64,000 nt of DNA from an uncultured Acidimicrobiales bacterium (GTDB taxonomy: Bacteria > Actinomycetota > Acidimicrobiia > Acidimicrobiales > SHLQ01). The stretch covers positions 1 to 64,000 of the forward strand of contig CALHTB010000011.1 in assembly GCA_938038785.1 (NCBI GenBank), written 5' to 3'. Position 1 is the first letter of the stretch, and each line of letters starts with the position of its first letter. Shown one piece after another: positions 10,786 through 47,425 of the stretch. The position numbers and the translations under genes were made by a program. The notes below the pieces were generated by a model. It had not been told where the DNA came from. It was given only the letters and a program-made list of their open reading frames with translations, and did no database searches.

Positions 10786-11874
10786 ATGTCAACACTCAAC
10801 CCCTTTCTCCGCTACCGCGAACGCCTCGACAGCTACGAACCTGTTCGAAGCGGCGCCATGTCGGACGACCAGTGGGTCGACATCGTAGGTTCCCTCGACG
10901 CTGCGGTCAGTGGTGTCGAGGGACATGGATTCGAAGAGACGCCAGTTGTCGAAGCCTCGAAGCTGGCAGCGGCCATCGGTGTTGATGTCGATCTTTGGAT
11001 AAAGGCCGAGCCGCACAACGTGGGCGGCTCGCACAAGGCCCGGCACCTCATGGGCGTCGCAATCGCGATGCTGGTGGACGAATCACTTGGAGCGCCAAAG
11101 GCCGAACGTCTGGCGATCGCCAGCTGCGGCAATGCCGCCATGGGCGCTGGCGTGATTGCGGCCGCCATGCAACGTCCGCTCGATGTGTTTGTTCCGACGT
11201 GGGCCGATGCAACAGTCGTGTCACGCCTGACCGATCTCGGCTCGACCGTCAACCACTCGGAACGTCGCGATGGGGAGGCCGGCGATCCGGCGTATCTCCG
11301 TTTTCGTGAGGCGGTTGAATCGGGCGCTCGAGCGTTCAGCGTCCAGGGCACCGACACACCGACCACCTTTGACGGCGGAAGAACGCTTGGCTGGGAATTG
11401 GCAGATCAACTCGCCGACATCGATTCGCTCTACATCCAAGTCGGCGGCGGCGCGCTTGCTACTTCGGTGTCGATGGCAATTCCCGATGCGCGCCTTCATC
11501 CCGTGCAAGCCGAGGGATGCGCGCCACTTCGGCGAGCGTGGGACTTGCTTGCCCCCGAGTTCGACTTCGAGGCTGCAGCCGCCGATCCCGATTCGTACAT
11601 GTGGCCATGGGACGATCCACAGAGTTACGCCACGGGCATCCTCGATGACATCACGTACGACTGGCAACCGTTGTTGCAACGGACCAAGGCAACAGGGGGT
11701 GAGCCGATCGTGGCCCCCGAAGCGTTCGTTGTGGAGGCTCACGGCTTAGCTCATGAGCACACCAACATTCCCGTGTGCTCGACCGGCGCTGCGGGCCTGG
11801 CAGGGCTAATGGCCGAGCCTCCAAAAGCCAGCGAACGAGTTGCATTGCTCTTTACCGGAATCGATCGCACCTAG
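10786..11874 (+). CDS. Second fold-type II PLP-dependent enzyme (lyase-like)
   Basis: A 362-residue protein of the same superfamily as its upstream neighbour but a different subfamily. The PLP lysine is in GGSHKARH (about 80-87), the substrate loop is ASCGNAAMG, and the phosphate loop is QVGGGALATS. The pattern resembles threonine synthase/threonine dehydratase-like ammonia lyases. It is separated from the previous gene by only 3 bp and so is surely co-transcribed. Two different PLP lyase-type enzymes behind an amidohydrolase suggest sequential breakdown of an amino-acid-like ring-opening product. It ends 3 bp from a convergent gene. Confidence 0.75.
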   Translation: MSTLNPFLRYRERLDSYEPVRSGAMSDDQWVDIVGSLDAAVSGVEGHGFEETPVVEASKLAAAIGVDVDLWIKAEPHNVGGSHKARHLMGVAIAMLVDESLGAPKAERLAIASCGNAAMGAGVIAAAMQRPLDVFVPTWADATVVSRLTDLGSTVNHSERRDGEAGDPAYLRFREAVESGARAFSVQGTDTPTTFDGGRTLGWELADQLADIDSLYIQVGGGALATSVSMAIPDARLHPVQAEGCAPLRRAWDLLAPEFDFEAAAADPDSYMWPWDDPQSYATGILDDITYDWQPLLQRTKATGGEPIVAPEAFVVEAHGLAHEHTNIPVCSTGAAGLAGLMAEPPKASERVALLFTGIDRT

Positions 11875-43420: not shown

Positions 43421-43908
43421 AACTTGAACCGGCCACACTCGAACTGCTCGACACGGCCGAATTCACGCTGTCGACCGACGTCGATTTGGCTGCCTCGATC
43501 GACGAGGTGTGGGCGGTCATTGCCGACAACACGTCGTGGACCGAGTGGTTCCACAACTGCACCAAGATGACCGCGTCTCACGACACATGGACTGCCGCTG
43601 GCCAGACCCGAACCATCTCCACCACTCCCTTTGTGATCGAGGAAGTGGCCATCGAAGTGGACGAACCGAACCGCTGGGCCATGTCGCTCACCAAGACCAA
43701 CCTGCCCATGGCCAAGCGAATGCTGGAAGTGCTCGACATCACCGACACCTCGCGCAACGGCGAAGAGCGCACCGAAGTCAAATGGACTGGCGCGTTCGAT
43801 CTTCCCGCCTACTTGCTGCCTGTGCGCAGCATCTCCGAGACGCTCTTGGTTCGAACGTGGGGCCGCAGCCTCGAGGCGCTCCAAGATGCGGTGATCGCTC
43901 GACGCTGA
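43417..43908 (+). CDS. SRPBCC family (polyketide cyclase/dehydrase-like) protein
   Basis: A 163-residue START-like domain with the first strand FTLSTDVDLAASIDEVWAVI, helix WTEWFHNC, and a long C-terminal helix ISETLLVRTWGRSLEALQDAV. Such proteins bind hydrophobic ligands in a deep cavity; the function here is unknown. It is translationally coupled to the flavoenzyme before it (4-bp overlap) and to the DNA ligase after it (TGATG), so it is the middle gene of a three-gene unit. Confidence 0.8.
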   Translation: MKLEPATLELLDTAEFTLSTDVDLAASIDEVWAVIADNTSWTEWFHNCTKMTASHDTWTAAGQTRTISTTPFVIEEVAIEVDEPNRWAMSLTKTNLPMAKRMLEVLDITDTSRNGEERTEVKWTGAFDLPAYLLPVRSISETLLVRTWGRSLEALQDAVIARR

Positions 43909-44888
43909 TGCCTCGCTTCATCAAACCCATGAAGGCTGCGCCGGGCCAGCTGCCCGCAGCGGCTGGCGGTTGGGGGTATGAAATCAAGTGGGACGGCATG
44001 CGAATTATCGCCCACCTCACCGCGACCGAAGACGGCCCGGTGGTCCGATTGCAGAGCGGCAACGGCAACGACGTGACCGTGTCGTTCCCCGAGCTCCATG
44101 GCCTCGACTGCTTGCTCGACGGGTTCGACGCGCTCATCCTCGATGGGGAAGTGGTGGCTATCGACGAGGCTGGCCTTCCTAGCTTTCCGCTCTTGCAACA
44201 GCGCATGCATGTATCGGACCCGGTCGATGCACGGCGGCGCGCCGTCACTGTGCCGGTGAGCTTCGCGATTTTCGATGTGCTGCACATCAACGGCCAAGAC
44301 ACGATGCGATTGCCGTTGCGCGACCGCCGGCAACTGCTCGAACAGATTGTCGAAGACGGCGCGCACTGGCGCCTCACGACACTGCACACCGAAGACCCAG
44401 CGGGCTTGCTGGCCACCGTGACCGAGCGGGGCATGGAAGGGCTGGTCGCAAAGCAGCTCTCCTCGCTCTACCAAGAGGGGAAGCGGCCGGCGTCATGGGT
44501 GAAGATCAAGCCCCGACACCGACAAGAATTTGTCGTCGGTGGCTGGAACGAAGGACGCGACGGCAACACCGGAAACCTCGGCGCTCTTCTCCTGGGCTAT
44601 ATGGACGGCGAAGATTTCATCCACTGCGGAAGCGTCGGGTCGGGCCTGAACGACAAGACACGACGCGAATGGCTCGGCCGGGTCATAGAGCACGAGCTCG
44701 ACGAGCCACCGTTCGCCAACAAGGTCGAGCACAAGACCGGCCGCGTCTTTCATTGGACCGAACCGCGTTATGTCGTCGAAGTGGCCTTCAACAACTGGGA
44801 AGAAGACGGTCATCTGCGTCATCCGGTCTACTTAGGCCTACGAACCGACAAGACCCCAGCCGAAGTCGTGAGAGAAACTCATTCGTAA
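43908..44888 (+). CDS. ATP-dependent DNA ligase (LigC / LigD-ligase-domain type)
   Basis: A 326-residue ligase. Adenylation domain with the active-site KxDG motif in EIKWDGMR (Lys 27), LDGEVVAID (motif III), EGLVAK (motif IV) and WVKIKP (motif V), then an OB-fold domain to the C-terminus. It is the size of the actinobacterial LigC/LigD ligase domains used in repair, and lacks polymerase or nuclease domains. The stop TAA (44886-44888) lies inside the anticodon loop of a tRNA-Thr fragment, so the gene end is fused to an integration scar. The C-terminus still looks close to natural length. Confidence 0.9.
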   Translation: MPRFIKPMKAAPGQLPAAAGGWGYEIKWDGMRIIAHLTATEDGPVVRLQSGNGNDVTVSFPELHGLDCLLDGFDALILDGEVVAIDEAGLPSFPLLQQRMHVSDPVDARRRAVTVPVSFAIFDVLHINGQDTMRLPLRDRRQLLEQIVEDGAHWRLTTLHTEDPAGLLATVTERGMEGLVAKQLSSLYQEGKRPASWVKIKPRHRQEFVVGGWNEGRDGNTGNLGALLLGYMDGEDFIHCGSVGSGLNDKTRREWLGRVIEHELDEPPFANKVEHKTGRVFHWTEPRYVVEVAFNNWEEDGHLRHPVYLGLRTDKTPAEVVRETHS

Positions 44889-44923
44889 TGAGTAGGTCAG
44901 CGGTTCAATTCCGCTCGCGGGCT
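44877..44923 (+). tRNA. 3' half of a tRNA-Thr(CGT) gene, fragment 1
   Basis: Anticodon arm ACTCA-TTCGTAA-TGAGT (anticodon CGT at 44884-44886), variable loop AGGTC, T arm AGCGG-TTCAATT-CCGCT and acceptor 3' strand CGCGGGC plus discriminator T. The D arm and 5' acceptor are absent; the DNA upstream is the ligase gene. So it is not a functional tRNA. A 3' tRNA half is the usual attachment-site remnant left by integrases. Confidence 0.8.
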
Positions 44924-45062
44924 CTTCTCCCAAAATTCCTGCAACCACCTACAACCAGTGTGGGTAAATGCAGGAATTTCGCTCGTCTGGTTTGGAGAAC
45001 GAGGTCCGAACGGTGAGCAGCAGGTCGGGGGTTATCGCGAGTTAGAAGACCGCTAAGTCGGG

Positions 45063-45109
45063 TTTCATTCGCAATGAGTGGATCAGCGGTTCAACTCCGC
45101 TTTCTCGCT
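45063..45109 (+). tRNA. Diverged 3' half of a tRNA gene, fragment 2
   Basis: Same architecture as fragment 1 but more changed: TTTCA-TTCGCAA-TGAGT, GGATC, T arm AGCGG-TTCAACT-CCGCT, then TTCTCGC. No 5' half. Most likely an older or different attachment remnant. Confidence 0.65.
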
Positions 45110-45126
45110 TCACCGCAAGAAGGGCG

Positions 45127-45684
45127 CTAGATCAGGCGGTTCAACGCGCGGTTCGGGGCGCCGTAGCTGACTATCCGGATGTCGAGCCCGCTATCTCCGA
45201 ACCATTGCAGCGAAGTCTCGATGGCGTCGACGATCCACTCGGTCTTATTGCCGAATACTCCGCCTCCGAGCAGGGTGAGGAAGACGCGGTTGTTGCCCGT
45301 TTCGTGAGCGTTGATGAGGGCTGCGTGGAGCGTTGCTTCGTAGGAGGCTTCGAGCACGAGTCGGGCGAATGGCTCCCAGTTGTCTCGTCGGTCGGAGTAA
45401 CCGATCGGTAGCGCCGAGCCGTAGACCTGCGTGAGCGTGTGTCGATCTTCCGAGATTGTGACCTCGGTATTCCATTGGATCCCGATTCGTAGCTCTTCGC
45501 GCAAGTCATCTATTACATCCTCGGGTGCTTCCATGAGCGTCTCGGCAATATCATCGAGTTGATCCGGCGTGGGCCGGGCGTACCCGTTCTGCATGCGAAT
45601 GTCTTGACCAAGGGCATCGGCCATGTCCGCAAGGCAATCAACCTGCAAGTCCTCGCTTTGTCCAACCTGGCCTTCGAGCCGCAC
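45127..45684 (-). CDS. Truncated macro-like / unknown conserved protein
   Basis: A 185-residue frame from GTG 45684. The conserved-looking half is YGSALPIGYS, then EATLHAALINAHETG and FLTLLGGGVFGN, resembling the ligand loops of a macro-domain-like fold; this is tentative. In-frame sequence with the same character (ISCGAGTIYRNYF) continues upstream without a start codon to the stop at 45745-45747, so the protein probably lost its N-terminus. It lies between tRNA fragments 2 and 3. No neighbour explains its role. Confidence 0.5.
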   Translation of the reverse strand: MRLEGQVGQSEDLQVDCLADMADALGQDIRMQNGYARPTPDQLDDIAETLMEAPEDVIDDLREELRIGIQWNTEVTISEDRHTLTQVYGSALPIGYSDRRDNWEPFARLVLEASYEATLHAALINAHETGNNRVFLTLLGGGVFGNKTEWIVDAIETSLQWFGDSGLDIRIVSYGAPNRALNRLI

Positions 45685-45749
45685 GAAGTAGTTGCGGTAG
45701 ATGGTGCCTGCGCCGCAGCTGATTGCGCATGAGTGACCACCTTGCTATT

Positions 45750-45768
45750 AAATGTCAAGAGGACATTT
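45750..45768. promoter_or_regulatory. AAATGTC inverted repeat upstream of the truncated gene
   Basis: AAATGTC (45750-45756) and GACATTT (45762-45768) form a perfect 7-bp inverted repeat around AAGAG. On the minus strand it includes TTGACA, a good -35 box. It could be an operator or the end of a small element. Confidence 0.4.
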
Positions 45769-45894
45769 ATTCGCTAGAACGCAAGAAACGGTCGAGGATT
45801 GCCTCTCGCGACAGCAAATAACTACGAGCACAGCGCTCGTTGAGCTAGTTCTAGATCAGGGGCTTCGATGGAGTTAGCACAGCGCTGAGCCCGG

Positions 45895-45941
45895 TTTCAT
45901 TCGTAATGAGTAGGTCAGCGGTTCAATTCCGCTCTCGGGCT
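45895..45941 (+). tRNA. 3' half of a tRNA-Thr(CGT) gene, fragment 3
   Basis: From 45898 on it matches fragment 1 over about 45 bp with a single difference in the acceptor strand (CTCGGGC against CGCGGGC). The anticodon loop TTCGTAA, variable loop AGGTC and T arm are identical. The upstream stem strand is changed (TTTCA) and no D arm exists. Fragments 1 and 3 are direct repeats 1018 bp apart, as attL/attR-like ends would be. Confidence 0.8.
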
Positions 45942-45991
45942 CAAACACTGAAGAATCAACGATCAGCTCGTTGCGATCGGTTTCCGGTCGG

Positions 45992-46140
45992 TTAGCACAG
46001 CGCCCACTCGACAATCTCAAGAAGTTCGATGTCTGAAAGTCGATGGCCGATGGCTCGCCGTTTGGGCCCCGCTGCATCCCGAGTTGACGATCCAGATCCT
46101 CAAAGAACTGGGCCGAGACGCGAACGTCCCGGCGGTTCAC
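45992..46140 (-). pseudogene. Frameshifted and truncated copy of the ParE/RelE-like toxin
   Basis: From GTG 46140 the first 34 codons match the toxin at 46365-46679 (NRRDVRVSAQFFEDLDRQL, RGPNGEPSAIDF). One base is then missing, and the homologous sequence continues in the other frame (LSDIELLEIVEW) until TAA at 45992-45994. The C-terminal half is gone. The formal open frame runs on to 45874, but only as antisense of a tRNA fragment. Start overlaps the stop of its antitoxin (GTGA). Confidence 0.8.
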
Positions 46141-46313
46141 GATGTGGACTGCTCCGTGGAAGCGATGTGATCGAGCGCCACCTTCCTTGCCCACTCCATA
46201 GTCTCAGGTGGGATCTCCGCTGGGTCGGTGACGACGGCTGCACGGGAGATCTCCCGCCGCTCGGCAGGTGTCATCTTTTCGAGTTCTGCGGCGGTCCAGA
46301 TCTTCCGTTCCAT
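46137..46313 (-). CDS. Antitoxin, second copy (58 residues)
   Basis: A 58-residue protein beginning MERKIWTAAELEKMTPAERR, a paralogue of the antitoxin at 46676-46852: same length and an almost identical first half (about 19 of 20 residues), but a different C-terminal half (TMEWARKVALDH). In such modules the variable end normally contacts the toxin, so the two may differ in specificity. Its own toxin gene, overlapping by 4 bp, is broken. Alone it could act as an anti-addiction antitoxin. Confidence 0.75.
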   Translation of the reverse strand: MERKIWTAAELEKMTPAERREISRAAVVTDPAEIPPETMEWARKVALDHIASTEQSTS

Positions 46314-46364: not shown

Positions 46365-46679
46365 TCACTCCCAGTCCATCGACAGGTCGAATTCGATGCC
46401 AATGAGTTCGACCGACCCATCTTGGGTTTCGACTCCGATTACTTTCATCGCCATGAAGAGCATGCCGCCCTTGACGAGCACGCGGTAGTCGCTCCGGCCA
46501 GGGAACAGGGGAGCTAGTTCGTGAAAGCCGACAGCGAACCTCTCAACGATCTCGACGACCTCGACGGACAGGAAGTCGACCGATGACGGTTCGCCATTTG
46601 GTCCGCGCTCAGGTTCGAGCTGATTGTCGAGATCTTCCCAGAAGCTGGCGGTCACTCGAACAACCCGCCGGTTGGTCAT
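46365..46679 (-). CDS. ParE/RelE-like toxin of a type II toxin-antitoxin module
   Basis: A 104-residue protein with the ParE/RelE-like order: N-terminal RVTASFWEDLDNQL helix, LAPLFPGRSDYRVLVKGG in the middle and a FMAMKVIGV strand near the C-terminus. The Arg in GRSDYRV matches the conserved Arg of the fold. It would act on gyrase (ParE) or on ribosome-bound mRNA (RelE); sequence alone does not decide. It overlaps the antitoxin stop by 4 bp (ATGA), antitoxin first, as usual. Confidence 0.7.
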   Translation of the reverse strand: MTNRRVVRVTASFWEDLDNQLEPERGPNGEPSSVDFLSVEVVEIVERFAVGFHELAPLFPGRSDYRVLVKGGMLFMAMKVIGVETQDGSVELIGIEFDLSMDWE

Positions 46680-46852
46680 GCAGTCTGCGTTTTGTCGTTG
46701 GCATCCATGTGGCGCCGCGCTGACTCACGTGCTCGTTCCAGAAGCTCTGGAAACTCGTTTGGGTCGGAGATCTCGCATGCTCGCGAAATGCGACTGCGCT
46801 CGGCAGGTGTCATCTTTTCGAGTTCTGCGGCGGTCCAGATCTTCCGTTCCAT
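46676..46852 (-). CDS. Antitoxin of the intact module (58 residues)
   Basis: Start at 46852 (MERKIWTAAELEKMTPAERS); the longer frame adds 15 residues without a ribosome site. A small helical, charged protein. The C-terminal half (NEFPELLERARESARRH) would wrap the toxin. AAGGTG lies upstream. About 55 bp around the start codon are nearly identical to the region of the second antitoxin, which shows a recent duplication. Confidence 0.75.
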   Translation of the reverse strand: MERKIWTAAELEKMTPAERSRISRACEISDPNEFPELLERARESARRHMDANDKTQTA

Positions 46853-46955
46853 GTTGGTCACCTTACCCGCGCGGTCTGATATCGAACTTGGCGGCACCGC
46901 AACAGCAGGCGACTTTGAGCCCAGCGCTCACCGGGGACCCGGTAGAGCAGGAGAA

Positions 46956-46996
46956 TTTGTGCACTTTGCCACCGCAGAGGTAGCAAAGTGCACAAA
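46956..46996. terminator. Perfect 14-bp inverted repeat after the stress protein gene
   Basis: TTTGTGCACTTTGC (46956-46969) and GCAAAGTGCACAAA (46983-46996) with a 13-nt loop that can itself pair partly (CACC/GGTA). It follows the stop of the minus-strand universal stress gene by 9 bp and precedes the antitoxin. The A/T runs sit before the hairpin on the minus strand, not after it, so simple intrinsic termination is uncertain. Confidence 0.5.
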
Positions 46997-47005
46997 AAAT
47001 TGGCG

Positions 47006-47425
47006 TTAGGCGGTTTTGGCGATGAGGACGGCGCAGTCGGCGCGGTGAGCGACGTCTTCAGCGACGCTGCCGAGCACTCGGCCAAGGCCTTGAACGTGCC
47101 GGTTACCAACAAGAATAAGGTCGGCATCGACTTCCTGGGCTTCGTCGAGAAGTACCTTGGCTGGAGAGCCGGGAACAGCAGCCATGCTCACTTCGAGATG
47201 GCAGAGGTCCGACGCGATATCGGCGAGCTGCTTCTGTGCGATCTCCGACGAGCTGAGGAACTGCTTGTCGCTCGAAGCGCCGATCTCATGGATCTTGTCG
47301 CTCTTGTCTACCGCGGTCACCAGGTGCACCTTTGAGCCGGTAGCGGTTGCCAGATCAGCAGCCTGCTCGACCGCGCGAAGCGCCCGATCAGATCCGTCGT
47401 AACCAACAACAATCTTCTTGTACAT
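47006..47425 (-). CDS. Universal stress protein (UspA family)
   Basis: A 139-residue single-domain Usp with KIVVGYDGSDRALRAVEQA at the N-terminus and the ATP-binding signature GNRHVQGLGRVLGSVAEDV, consistent with the nucleotide-binding subfamily. It supports survival under stress; the precise partner is unknown. AGAGG precedes the ATG, a normal ribosome site. The 262 bp between it and the divergent nitroreductase hold no gene; two copies of CGCCGCACGG lie near 47549-47575. Confidence 0.9.
   Translation of the reverse strand: MYKKIVVGYDGSDRALRAVEQAADLATATGSKVHLVTAVDKSDKIHEIGASSDKQFLSSSEIAQKQLADIASDLCHLEVSMAAVPGSPAKVLLDEAQEVDADLILVGNRHVQGLGRVLGSVAEDVAHRADCAVLIAKTA

Follow-up and report, generated by a model that had tools for sequence, protein, structure and literature searches.

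The 64,000-nucleotide stretch analysed here ("the window": positions 1 to 64,000, forward strand, of contig CALHTB010000011.1, assembly GCA_938038785.1) comes from an uncultured bacterium of the order Acidimicrobiales and carries three 3' halves of tRNA-Thr(CGT) in close succession. They very probably mark a short, partly decayed tandem array of nonautonomous integrative units ("cassettes") that was inserted at a stray site. The origin of such an array can be pictured as follows. Each unit ends in an attachment site whose core, the tRNA-Thr(CGT) 3' half, is flanked by "arm" repeats of the sequence GCACAGCGCT; larger elements of the family, which sit at the tRNA gene in relatives, encode a Xer-like tyrosine integrase that would recombine these sites in the anticodon loop; and ordinary insertion would generate the order tRNA - unit - half - unit - half beside the tRNA gene. 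The insertion in the window would have struck a stretch resembling a tRNA in the 3' end of a ligase gene, thus creating a stray array with neither a tRNA gene nor an integrase. The short units would ride in trans, as cis-mobilizable elements do, with small accessory cargo (here, toxin-antitoxin-like gene pairs) that may stabilise the array. (Handles such as G006, C104 and L075 designate genomes, contigs and loci of this analysis.)

The three halves, each of which extends from the anticodon arm through the 3' end of tRNA-Thr(CGT) and has no D arm, are:

44877-44925, + strand: tRNA-Thr(CGT) 3' half 1 (profile score 50 bits, also found by BLAST), the left junction of the array at its putative secondary site.
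45062-45105, + strand: tRNA-Thr(CGT) 3' half 2 (profile score 32 bits, also found by BLAST).
45894-45943, + strand: tRNA-Thr(CGT) 3' half 3, the core (profile score 55 bits, also found by BLAST).

An initial annotation, made from the sequence alone, had described three D-armless fragments here, and profile and BLAST searches bear it out, with starts at 44877, 45062 and 45894. Fragments 1 and 3 are, as it said, direct repeats 1018 bp apart, with a single difference in 46 aligned bp (98%; E 3e-16 in a search of the genome). The same search pairs halves 2 and 3 over 66 bp (83% identity, E 2e-13), and upstream of both lies a common non-tRNA stretch (71 bp in register, 82%), which is the attachment-site arm. 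The same annotation had allowed for a D arm and 5' acceptor lying behind a long insertion, and for fragments that are common scattered repeats. Neither ARAGORN nor Rfam finds a tRNA in the window, so no such parts are hidden there, and the halves are the sole matches at E < 0.9 in the 3.67-Mb assembly: three copies, all at this locus. A 3' half identical in kind forms part of the intact tRNA-Thr(CGT) genes of relatives; the intact gene was not found in the window's own assembly, which is 73% complete (BLAST with half 3; ARAGORN on 30 of 54 tRNA-match loci). (A side note on that assembly: 21 of its 54 tRNA matches fall inside 6.6 kb of contig C62, at 62863-69398, which is a dense tRNA gene array.)

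The halves are not the bare remnants for which they had been taken, but belong to larger sites that include arm repeats; decay, the other part of that description, is evident in half 2 and where the array ends on the right. The parts of these sites in the window are:

45814-45943, + strand: complete right-end attachment site 3 (P1, P2 and tRNA half); 102 bits, E 5e-29, with model R1.
45828-45837, + strand: arm repeat P1, GCACAGCGCT.
45877-45886, + strand: arm repeat P2, GCACAGCGCT, 49 bp after P1 and 24 nt before the anticodon-loop TCG.
45994-46003, + strand: arm repeat P' (AGCACAGCGC) at the left end of unit 3; GCACAGCG begins 94 nt past the core TCG.
45039-45105, + strand: decayed attachment site 2, a degenerate P2 arm (GTTAGAAGACCGCT) with tRNA half 2.
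46912-46930, + strand: possible P1 remnant at the right end of unit 3 (TTTGAGCCCAGCGCTC), with one mismatch to the arm.

(A technical note: R1 was built from 14 site sequences, site 3 of the window among them, and its scores for those 14 are not independent; the two weakest right ends of A1, those of L079 and of window half 2, were left out.) Exact AGCACAGCGC occurs three times in the 64 kb, each copy less than 180 bp from half 3. One-mismatch matches to the arm number nine in the window, no more than chance (mean 7.85), and the possible P1 remnant is singled out because it shares the context TTTGAGC..GCTC with the right-end consensus.

The anatomy of the site is clearer in relatives. Half 3 with its flank matches 38 of the 59 genomes searched (its own included), and ARAGORN calls a tRNA-Thr(CGT) in 24 of 29 loci of relatives (the G034 call is really a half with arms). 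In several relatives an intact tRNA-Thr(CGT) is followed by one to three halves in the same orientation; in the displaced halves the 5' half of the tRNA is replaced by a common non-tRNA sequence, GTTAGCACAGCGCTnAG, and the 3' side of the intact gene or first half often presents a short inverted repeat of the type GTTGAnAAATCAAC, followed by TTAGCACAGCGnTC. Altogether 28 sites were found in 18 genomes, with direct repeats of GCACAGCGCT at fixed, helically phased distances. P2 stands 24 nt before the core TCG in 27 of the 28 and 23 nt in the remaining one (placement was permitted at offsets of 21-27 with up to 2 mismatches). P1 precedes P2 by 49 bp at 13 sites, by 38 at four and by 37 at one, and was not found at nine; at the 28th, in G034, P1 was mis-assigned by the script and separate inspection gives 49 bp. 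P' follows the TCG at 92-94 nt in 12 places and at 102-104 nt in five; P'-like motifs at other distances, mostly with one mismatch, are taken as chance. The alternative spacings differ by about one helical turn (10-11 bp), as expected for proteins bound on one face of the helix.

At 12 of 19 loci one to three sites come after an intact tRNA (that of G010 is interrupted where its contig stops), so that a displaced 3' tRNA fragment ends a unit begun at the intact gene, which is the arrangement of Islander-type tDNA islands with a tyrosine integrase; the window does not have it, since its array starts in the ligase gene. (The 19 loci were chosen for a matching fragment, model or pattern.) Three observations on the same tRNA can be set beside these. 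At L075, in G005, the T stem differs between the intact tRNA (880-928, GCGG..CCGC) and the displaced half (129-177, GCAG..CTGC), as would be expected if the incoming element brought its own tRNA 3' half. At L134, in G227, tandem tRNA-Thr halves (cores at 11531 and 14074) lack the GCACAGCGCT geometry and have another common upstream sequence; they are perhaps the work of a second integrase family on the same tRNA. At L166 (G368) and L139 (G258) two complete tRNA-Thr(CGT) genes lie 1.8 kb and 6.7 kb apart, respectively, in one orientation.

That the window's array is a stray one follows from its neighbours:

43905-44888, + strand: ATP-dependent DNA ligase-like gene, left neighbour of the insertion, whose last codons run into half 1.
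44926-45061, + strand: remnant of unit 1, holding an inverted repeat at 44933-44979.
47006-47425, - strand: universal-stress-protein-like (uspA-like) gene, right neighbour.

(The names of both neighbouring genes are what we take their products to be from sequence.) Orthologues of the ligase-like gene are present in 17 of the 18 genomes searched. In G010, G008 and G004 it lies about 20 bp or less from the uspA-like gene, with no half or tRNA between them, while in the window the gap is 2.1 kb; the array is therefore a stray insertion. The initial annotation is supported in proposing tandem, site-specific integration at tRNA-Thr(CGT) 3' halves and unsupported in regarding this locus as the tRNA integration site itself: it is a secondary one. 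Of the 12 bases directly 5' of half 1, nine match, by eye, the D-arm region of the G003 tRNA (AGTCGTGAGAGA vs AGTCGGTAGAGC), which makes a secondary attachment site at the end of the ligase gene plausible. Comparison with sister genomes, which that annotation had advised as a search for larger elements, turns up something smaller in G006: a half at the same place in the ligase gene with a 0.93-kb island, and a separate array at the tRNA gene proper. The insertion is thus probably older than the split between the window's genome and G006. The gain and loss of units between the two is not placeable to the base, the pairwise alignment of the islands being clear at the ends only. Two further junctions are instructive: G010:C104 has a second left junction of the stray type, 3' of a different gene, and G017:C110 has a right junction of the expected reciprocal form, in which P1-P2 extends up to CTTCTCGT and is followed by non-tRNA DNA. 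Taken with those of the window, they locate the crossover within the anticodon loop or close to it.

Between the damaged right end and the uspA-like gene lies one more feature:

46956-46996, no strand assigned: strong palindrome.

It is near-perfect (TTTGTGCACTTTGCCACC/GGTAGCAAAGTGCACAAA), lies directly before the uspA-like gene and has one exact copy in its own genome; G006 has sequences resembling it, both inside its island and following one of its array sites. It may be a terminator or a small repeat element.

Bounded units in relatives number 21; they range from 751 to 10,647 bp, and 14, of several families, are shorter than 2 kb. A search with four recombinases from G018 and G034 (tblastn, E 0.01) finds no integrase match in 18 of the 21, nor in any of the three window segments, so that the absence of an integrase from the window, asserted in the initial annotation, stands. 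Its proposal that the elements were simply lost is not supported: the window's units hold a 185-codon open reading frame (ORF) and two toxin-antitoxin-like pairs, and among relatives integrase-less short units are frequent. The integrase-positive units are the G018 element, the G034 element and one 2.5-kb unit of G444, which has a short piece. By their sequences, the units behave as modules. Three units of G308 resemble one another only in their last 76-83 bp (blastn, E 1e-3), and the second of them is 80% identical over 812 bp, up to the attachment end, to the sole unit of G111, which belongs to another genus; the 2 kb upstream of the tRNA give no tblastx match at 1e-5 between these two genomes. 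Because a unit is shared between genera in this way, single units may well move in trans. Of the marks of a cis-mobilizable element (attachment sites at both ends, neither integrase nor transfer genes), the sites and the lack of an integrase are observed in relatives; in the window, unit 2 alone has a site at either end, and the left one is decayed. No transfer gene was matched by Pfam among the ORFs scanned, no systematic transfer-gene search having been made. The marks of additive islands are also present (cassettes at a tRNA, partial tRNA repeats and content that varies among relatives), with the reservation that the window's array is not itself at a tRNA.

A candidate for the integrase is found in the two largest units, the 10.6-kb element of G018 and the 7.8-kb element of G034, each of which opens, no more than about 90 bp from the tRNA, with a tyrosine recombinase (300 and 317 amino acids (aa), respectively) made up, by Pfam, of a Phage_integrase domain and a SAM-like N-domain. 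Both score best with XerC/XerD models, below the cut-offs of those models, and far lower with the integron integrase model (160 vs 55 bits and 146 vs 42 bits). Relatives at E < 1e-60 occur in five of 22 genomes, the query's own G034 included, and there is a contig-end piece in G002. The integrase adjoins tRNA-Thr(CGT) in G034, G018 and G311 and, as the piece, in G002; the G311 copy has one in-frame stop, and the G015 integrase lies behind a tRNA-Ala(TGC). In all six genomes an arm motif is located between the tRNA and the integrase or at the start of the integrase; the two thus appear to be associated, perhaps at other tRNAs as well, and it may be on these arms that the integrase acts. (A second, different tyrosine recombinase, PF00589, is encoded inside both large elements, at L072:3635-4687 and L073:10182-11201; the two are 34-35% identical.)

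The cargo of the window's array consists of:

45127-45684, - strand: 185-aa ORF, the cargo of unit 2.
46009-46140, - strand: truncated toxin-like gene (profile positions 2-45 of 104).
46137-46313, - strand: antitoxin-like gene of 58 aa, paired with the truncated toxin.
46365-46679, - strand: toxin-like gene, 104 aa, with a predicted RelE/ParE-type fold.
46676-46897, - strand: antitoxin-like gene upstream of the toxin, overlapping it by 4 nt; its product has 73 aa, or about 58 aa if an internal start is used.

The 185-aa ORF has no family in Pfam, NCBIfam or PADLOC and no relative among the loci compared. Unit 3 thus carries two tandem gene pairs on the - strand, one of them with a truncated second gene. 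The 104-aa protein has 25 homologues in 15 of 32 genomes, and ten of the 25, the five best included, lie in or beside tRNA-Thr attachment sites. (The profile, A4, was built from four array copies, those of the window, G010, G006 and G015, which are among the five best by construction; of the 21 independent matches, six are in or beside arrays. Sixteen other toxin loci were checked for arms, and a tRNA and arm occur together only at G179:C57, which is counted among the ten.) Searches of Pfam and NCBIfam give no sequence match for the protein, and no PDB sequence matches it below E 0.3. A structure model from 10 sequences has a pLDDT (predicted local distance difference test) of 93 (an earlier model from four sequences, with a pLDDT of 47, was not used), and the best Foldseek matches of this model are chains of PfiAT, HigB2/HigBA2 and ParDE (E 2e-3 to 6e-2, probability 0.98-1.00; none at E 0.001). 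On the strength of this modelled fold, the protein is likely to be a RelE/ParE-type toxin with its antitoxin.

The units of relatives carry cargo of a similar scale: Pfam, which covered part of their ORFs, matches nucleotidyltransferase PF01909, NYN PF01936, PIN PF01850, GNAT acetyltransferases, DUF4259 and a ribbon-helix-helix antitoxin next to a weak Fic/Doc match below cut-off, and PADLOC matches the candidate-defence models PDC-S09 and HEC-09. A Methyltransf_4 (TrmB-like) gene lies beside four arrays (L069:6359-6997, L070:6790-7431, L071:11275-11934 and L136:2512-3147). Its products in five other genomes, of two genera, are 90-95% identical to the G010 protein, and in 12 of 18 genomes no copy was found; between G010 and G017 it is 93% identical, the ligases of these two being 47% identical. 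To judge by these identities, the gene has probably been mobile recently. It was tried as a chromosomal flank of the arrays and rejected as accessory, being present in six of the 18 genomes.

The arm patterns are narrowly distributed. Among 84,980 species, each represented by one genome, the P1-P2 pattern occurs in eight stretches, all from Acidimicrobiales/Acidimicrobiia metagenome-assembled genomes (MAGs); two of the eight are from one isolate bin, and the search may have excluded the window's own genome. Among the 2.9 million viral contigs of IMG/VR the arm pattern has no match, and the integrase has 28 pattern matches, with no confirmed relative; a viral origin was rejected on these grounds. 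Across the order, model R1 matches 366 of 397 genomes, a figure rejected as a measure of prevalence: among the matches listed, most are, by bits and model positions, intact tRNA-Thr genes (model positions about 50-130, at most about 51 bits). Matches of the attachment-site type, at least 55 bits, are present in 16 of the 397. The P1-P2 pattern has 23 matches in 17 of these genomes (backward-read control, 1): 15 with a tRNA-Thr half and one, G017:C110, without (these 16 are in 12 genomes), five that are tandem repeats (G005:C52, G323, G192 and, twice, G184), and two (G046, G250) without a recognisable tRNA half. The corresponding count in 32 chosen genomes is 17 (control, 0). For the P2-core pattern there are five matches in three of 395 genomes of the class (control, 0), and G444, of another order of the class, has four tandem sites.

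Several observations weigh against the array's having arisen by arm-directed integrase action as pictured above. Half 1 has no arm motif upstream, half 2 is degenerate and P2 is gone from the right end: a single good site out of three, together with the damage on the right, probably leaves the window's array immobile and fixed. P' is found 60-160 nt past only seven of the 28 half sites (six of them at standard spacing), so most inner units lack one arm. Pfam finds no separate arm-binding domain in the integrase. The integrase of G444:C3 lies 5' of a tRNA-Arg, a position at odds with the usual arrangement. The window's genome, at its 73% completeness, has only a 32%-identical recombinase, and its array-bearing genus-mates G005, G006, G007 and G010 have none above 34% (29-34%, the window's genome included). 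Fragmented MAGs, moreover, make up most of the genome set, and several arrays are found at the ends of contigs.

What else could have generated this locus? The most serious competitor to modular units moving in trans is shrinkage: the units would be once-autonomous elements with integrases of their own, each reduced independently by internal deletion, and no single-gene cassette would ever have moved. The large integrase-bearing units (10.6 and 7.8 kb), the 2.5-kb G444 unit with its integrase piece and the location of P' mainly adjacent to the tRNA are what such a history would leave. Yet most units, in several families, are under 2 kb and without an integrase match; independent deletions rarely leave one gene together with both ends; and the small unit common to G308 and G111 is alike up to the attachment end, the flanks upstream of the tRNA being unlike. 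We regard shrinkage as unlikely, though by no means negligible. That the locus is instead the original tRNA-Thr site, from which larger elements were deleted to leave a truncated tRNA, would account for the failure to find an intact gene, the lack of an integrase match and the decay of half 2; it is made quite improbable by the direct adjacency of the ligase-like and uspA-like genes, with no tRNA between them, in three relatives, by the upstream sequence of the array-preceding tRNA-Thr(CGT) at 12 loci, which is its own and different, and by the genes that the units hold.

Integron-like recombination, with the P1-P2 region folded as a single strand in the manner of attC, is suggested by the look of a cassette array with toxin-antitoxin-like cargo, by hairpins in some P1-P2 regions and by the weak scores of the integrases against the integron integrase model. 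The hairpins are not significant (mean z -0.5 over 28 sites, with mononucleotide shuffles and RNA parameters), however, the XerC/XerD models score far higher and the core belongs to a tRNA gene, all of which makes this reading very improbable. Membership among integrons, or among the integrase-less clusters of attC sites known as CALINs, was likewise rejected: there is no attC folding, and the 55 and 42 bits with the integron integrase model compare with a cut-off of 265. Finally, the halves might have nothing to do with integration and be either a dispersed repeat or an RNA gene of the D-armless, tRNA-like sort. Half 3 does fold well together with its flank, acceptor-like stem included (z -3.7), but halves 1 and 2 fold poorly (z -1.0 and -1.2), relatives, inspected by eye, do not preserve the 5' pairing, the only copies in the assembly are the three at this locus, and the arm geometry is left unexplained; a D-armless tRNA gene was rejected for the lack of a significant fold in halves 1 and 2, and there is hardly anything to recommend the rest of this idea.

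The dif modules of Acinetobacter carry toxin-antitoxin cargo. They are small, like the units described here, and move in trans by Xer-type recombination, as those may do (PMC13141974, PMC6449649; these and the reports below are cited for the sections available to us); they are mostly plasmid-borne, with short dif sites and host XerCD, as opposed to a tRNA core, arms, an element-encoded integrase and a chromosomal location. Chromosomal integrons and CALINs share small accessory cassettes, a site at one end and arrays without integrase (PMC9024848, PMC11551772, PMC7923331), and differ in that the present arrays have no attC fold, no integron integrase and a tRNA core. For SGI1, both insertion at a secondary chromosomal site and the formation of tandem arrays have been demonstrated (PMC2297512); it is a large mobilizable island whose primary site is trmE (PMC8409611), whereas the present units are short. 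Tycheposons have a tRNA at the border and a XerD-type tyrosine recombinase and, at 4-200 kb, differ in size from the present units (PMC10872708).

Closer still are the tRNA-gene cassettes of Ca. Actinomarinales (PMC7771536) and of the Methylophilaceae fGI-2 islands (PMC10872708), which are marked, as here, by partial tRNA direct repeats; fGI-2 islands range from 330 bp to 42 kb, their repeats being the last 20 nt of tRNA-Lys (PMC10872708). The sections of these two reports available to us describe neither arm motifs nor a cognate integrase, and the word integrase does not occur in PMC7771536; the present system has arms that are conserved and phased, a family of integrases and, away from any tRNA, a stray array. 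The ssrA islands of Dehalococcoides are tandem units bounded by repeats of an RNA gene's 3' end, some of them integrase-less (PMC3146451); there the recombinase is of the serine type, the gene that of tmRNA and the repeat 20 bp long (PMC3146451), and here the recombinase is a Xer-like tyrosine enzyme, the tRNA core about 50 bp with arms in addition, and the units mostly short. These additive tRNA islands and tandem ssrA islands are the same kind of thing as the present arrays. A description of the present array system itself was not found among the top-ranked matches in the open-access literature.

One can go further, tentatively, and ask whether the Acidimicrobiales possess a gene-cassette system of their own, apart from integrons, in which circular single-gene cassettes of the form P1-P2-tRNA half would be taken up one after another at tRNA-Thr(CGT), through a Xer-like integrase acting in trans, held in part by toxin-antitoxin function, and would seed stray arrays without integrase; this is possible, if somewhat doubtful. 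The tRNA-gene cassettes of streamlined and uncultured bacteria have usually been characterised, as far as the available sections of the reports go, by their tRNA repeats (PMC7771536, PMC10872708). What this case offers is the full anatomy of the attachment site, a candidate integrase and a search model, and a toxin-antitoxin-like family without a database name is gained as well. With site, enzyme candidate and search model in hand, how single genes come to join tRNAs becomes a testable question.

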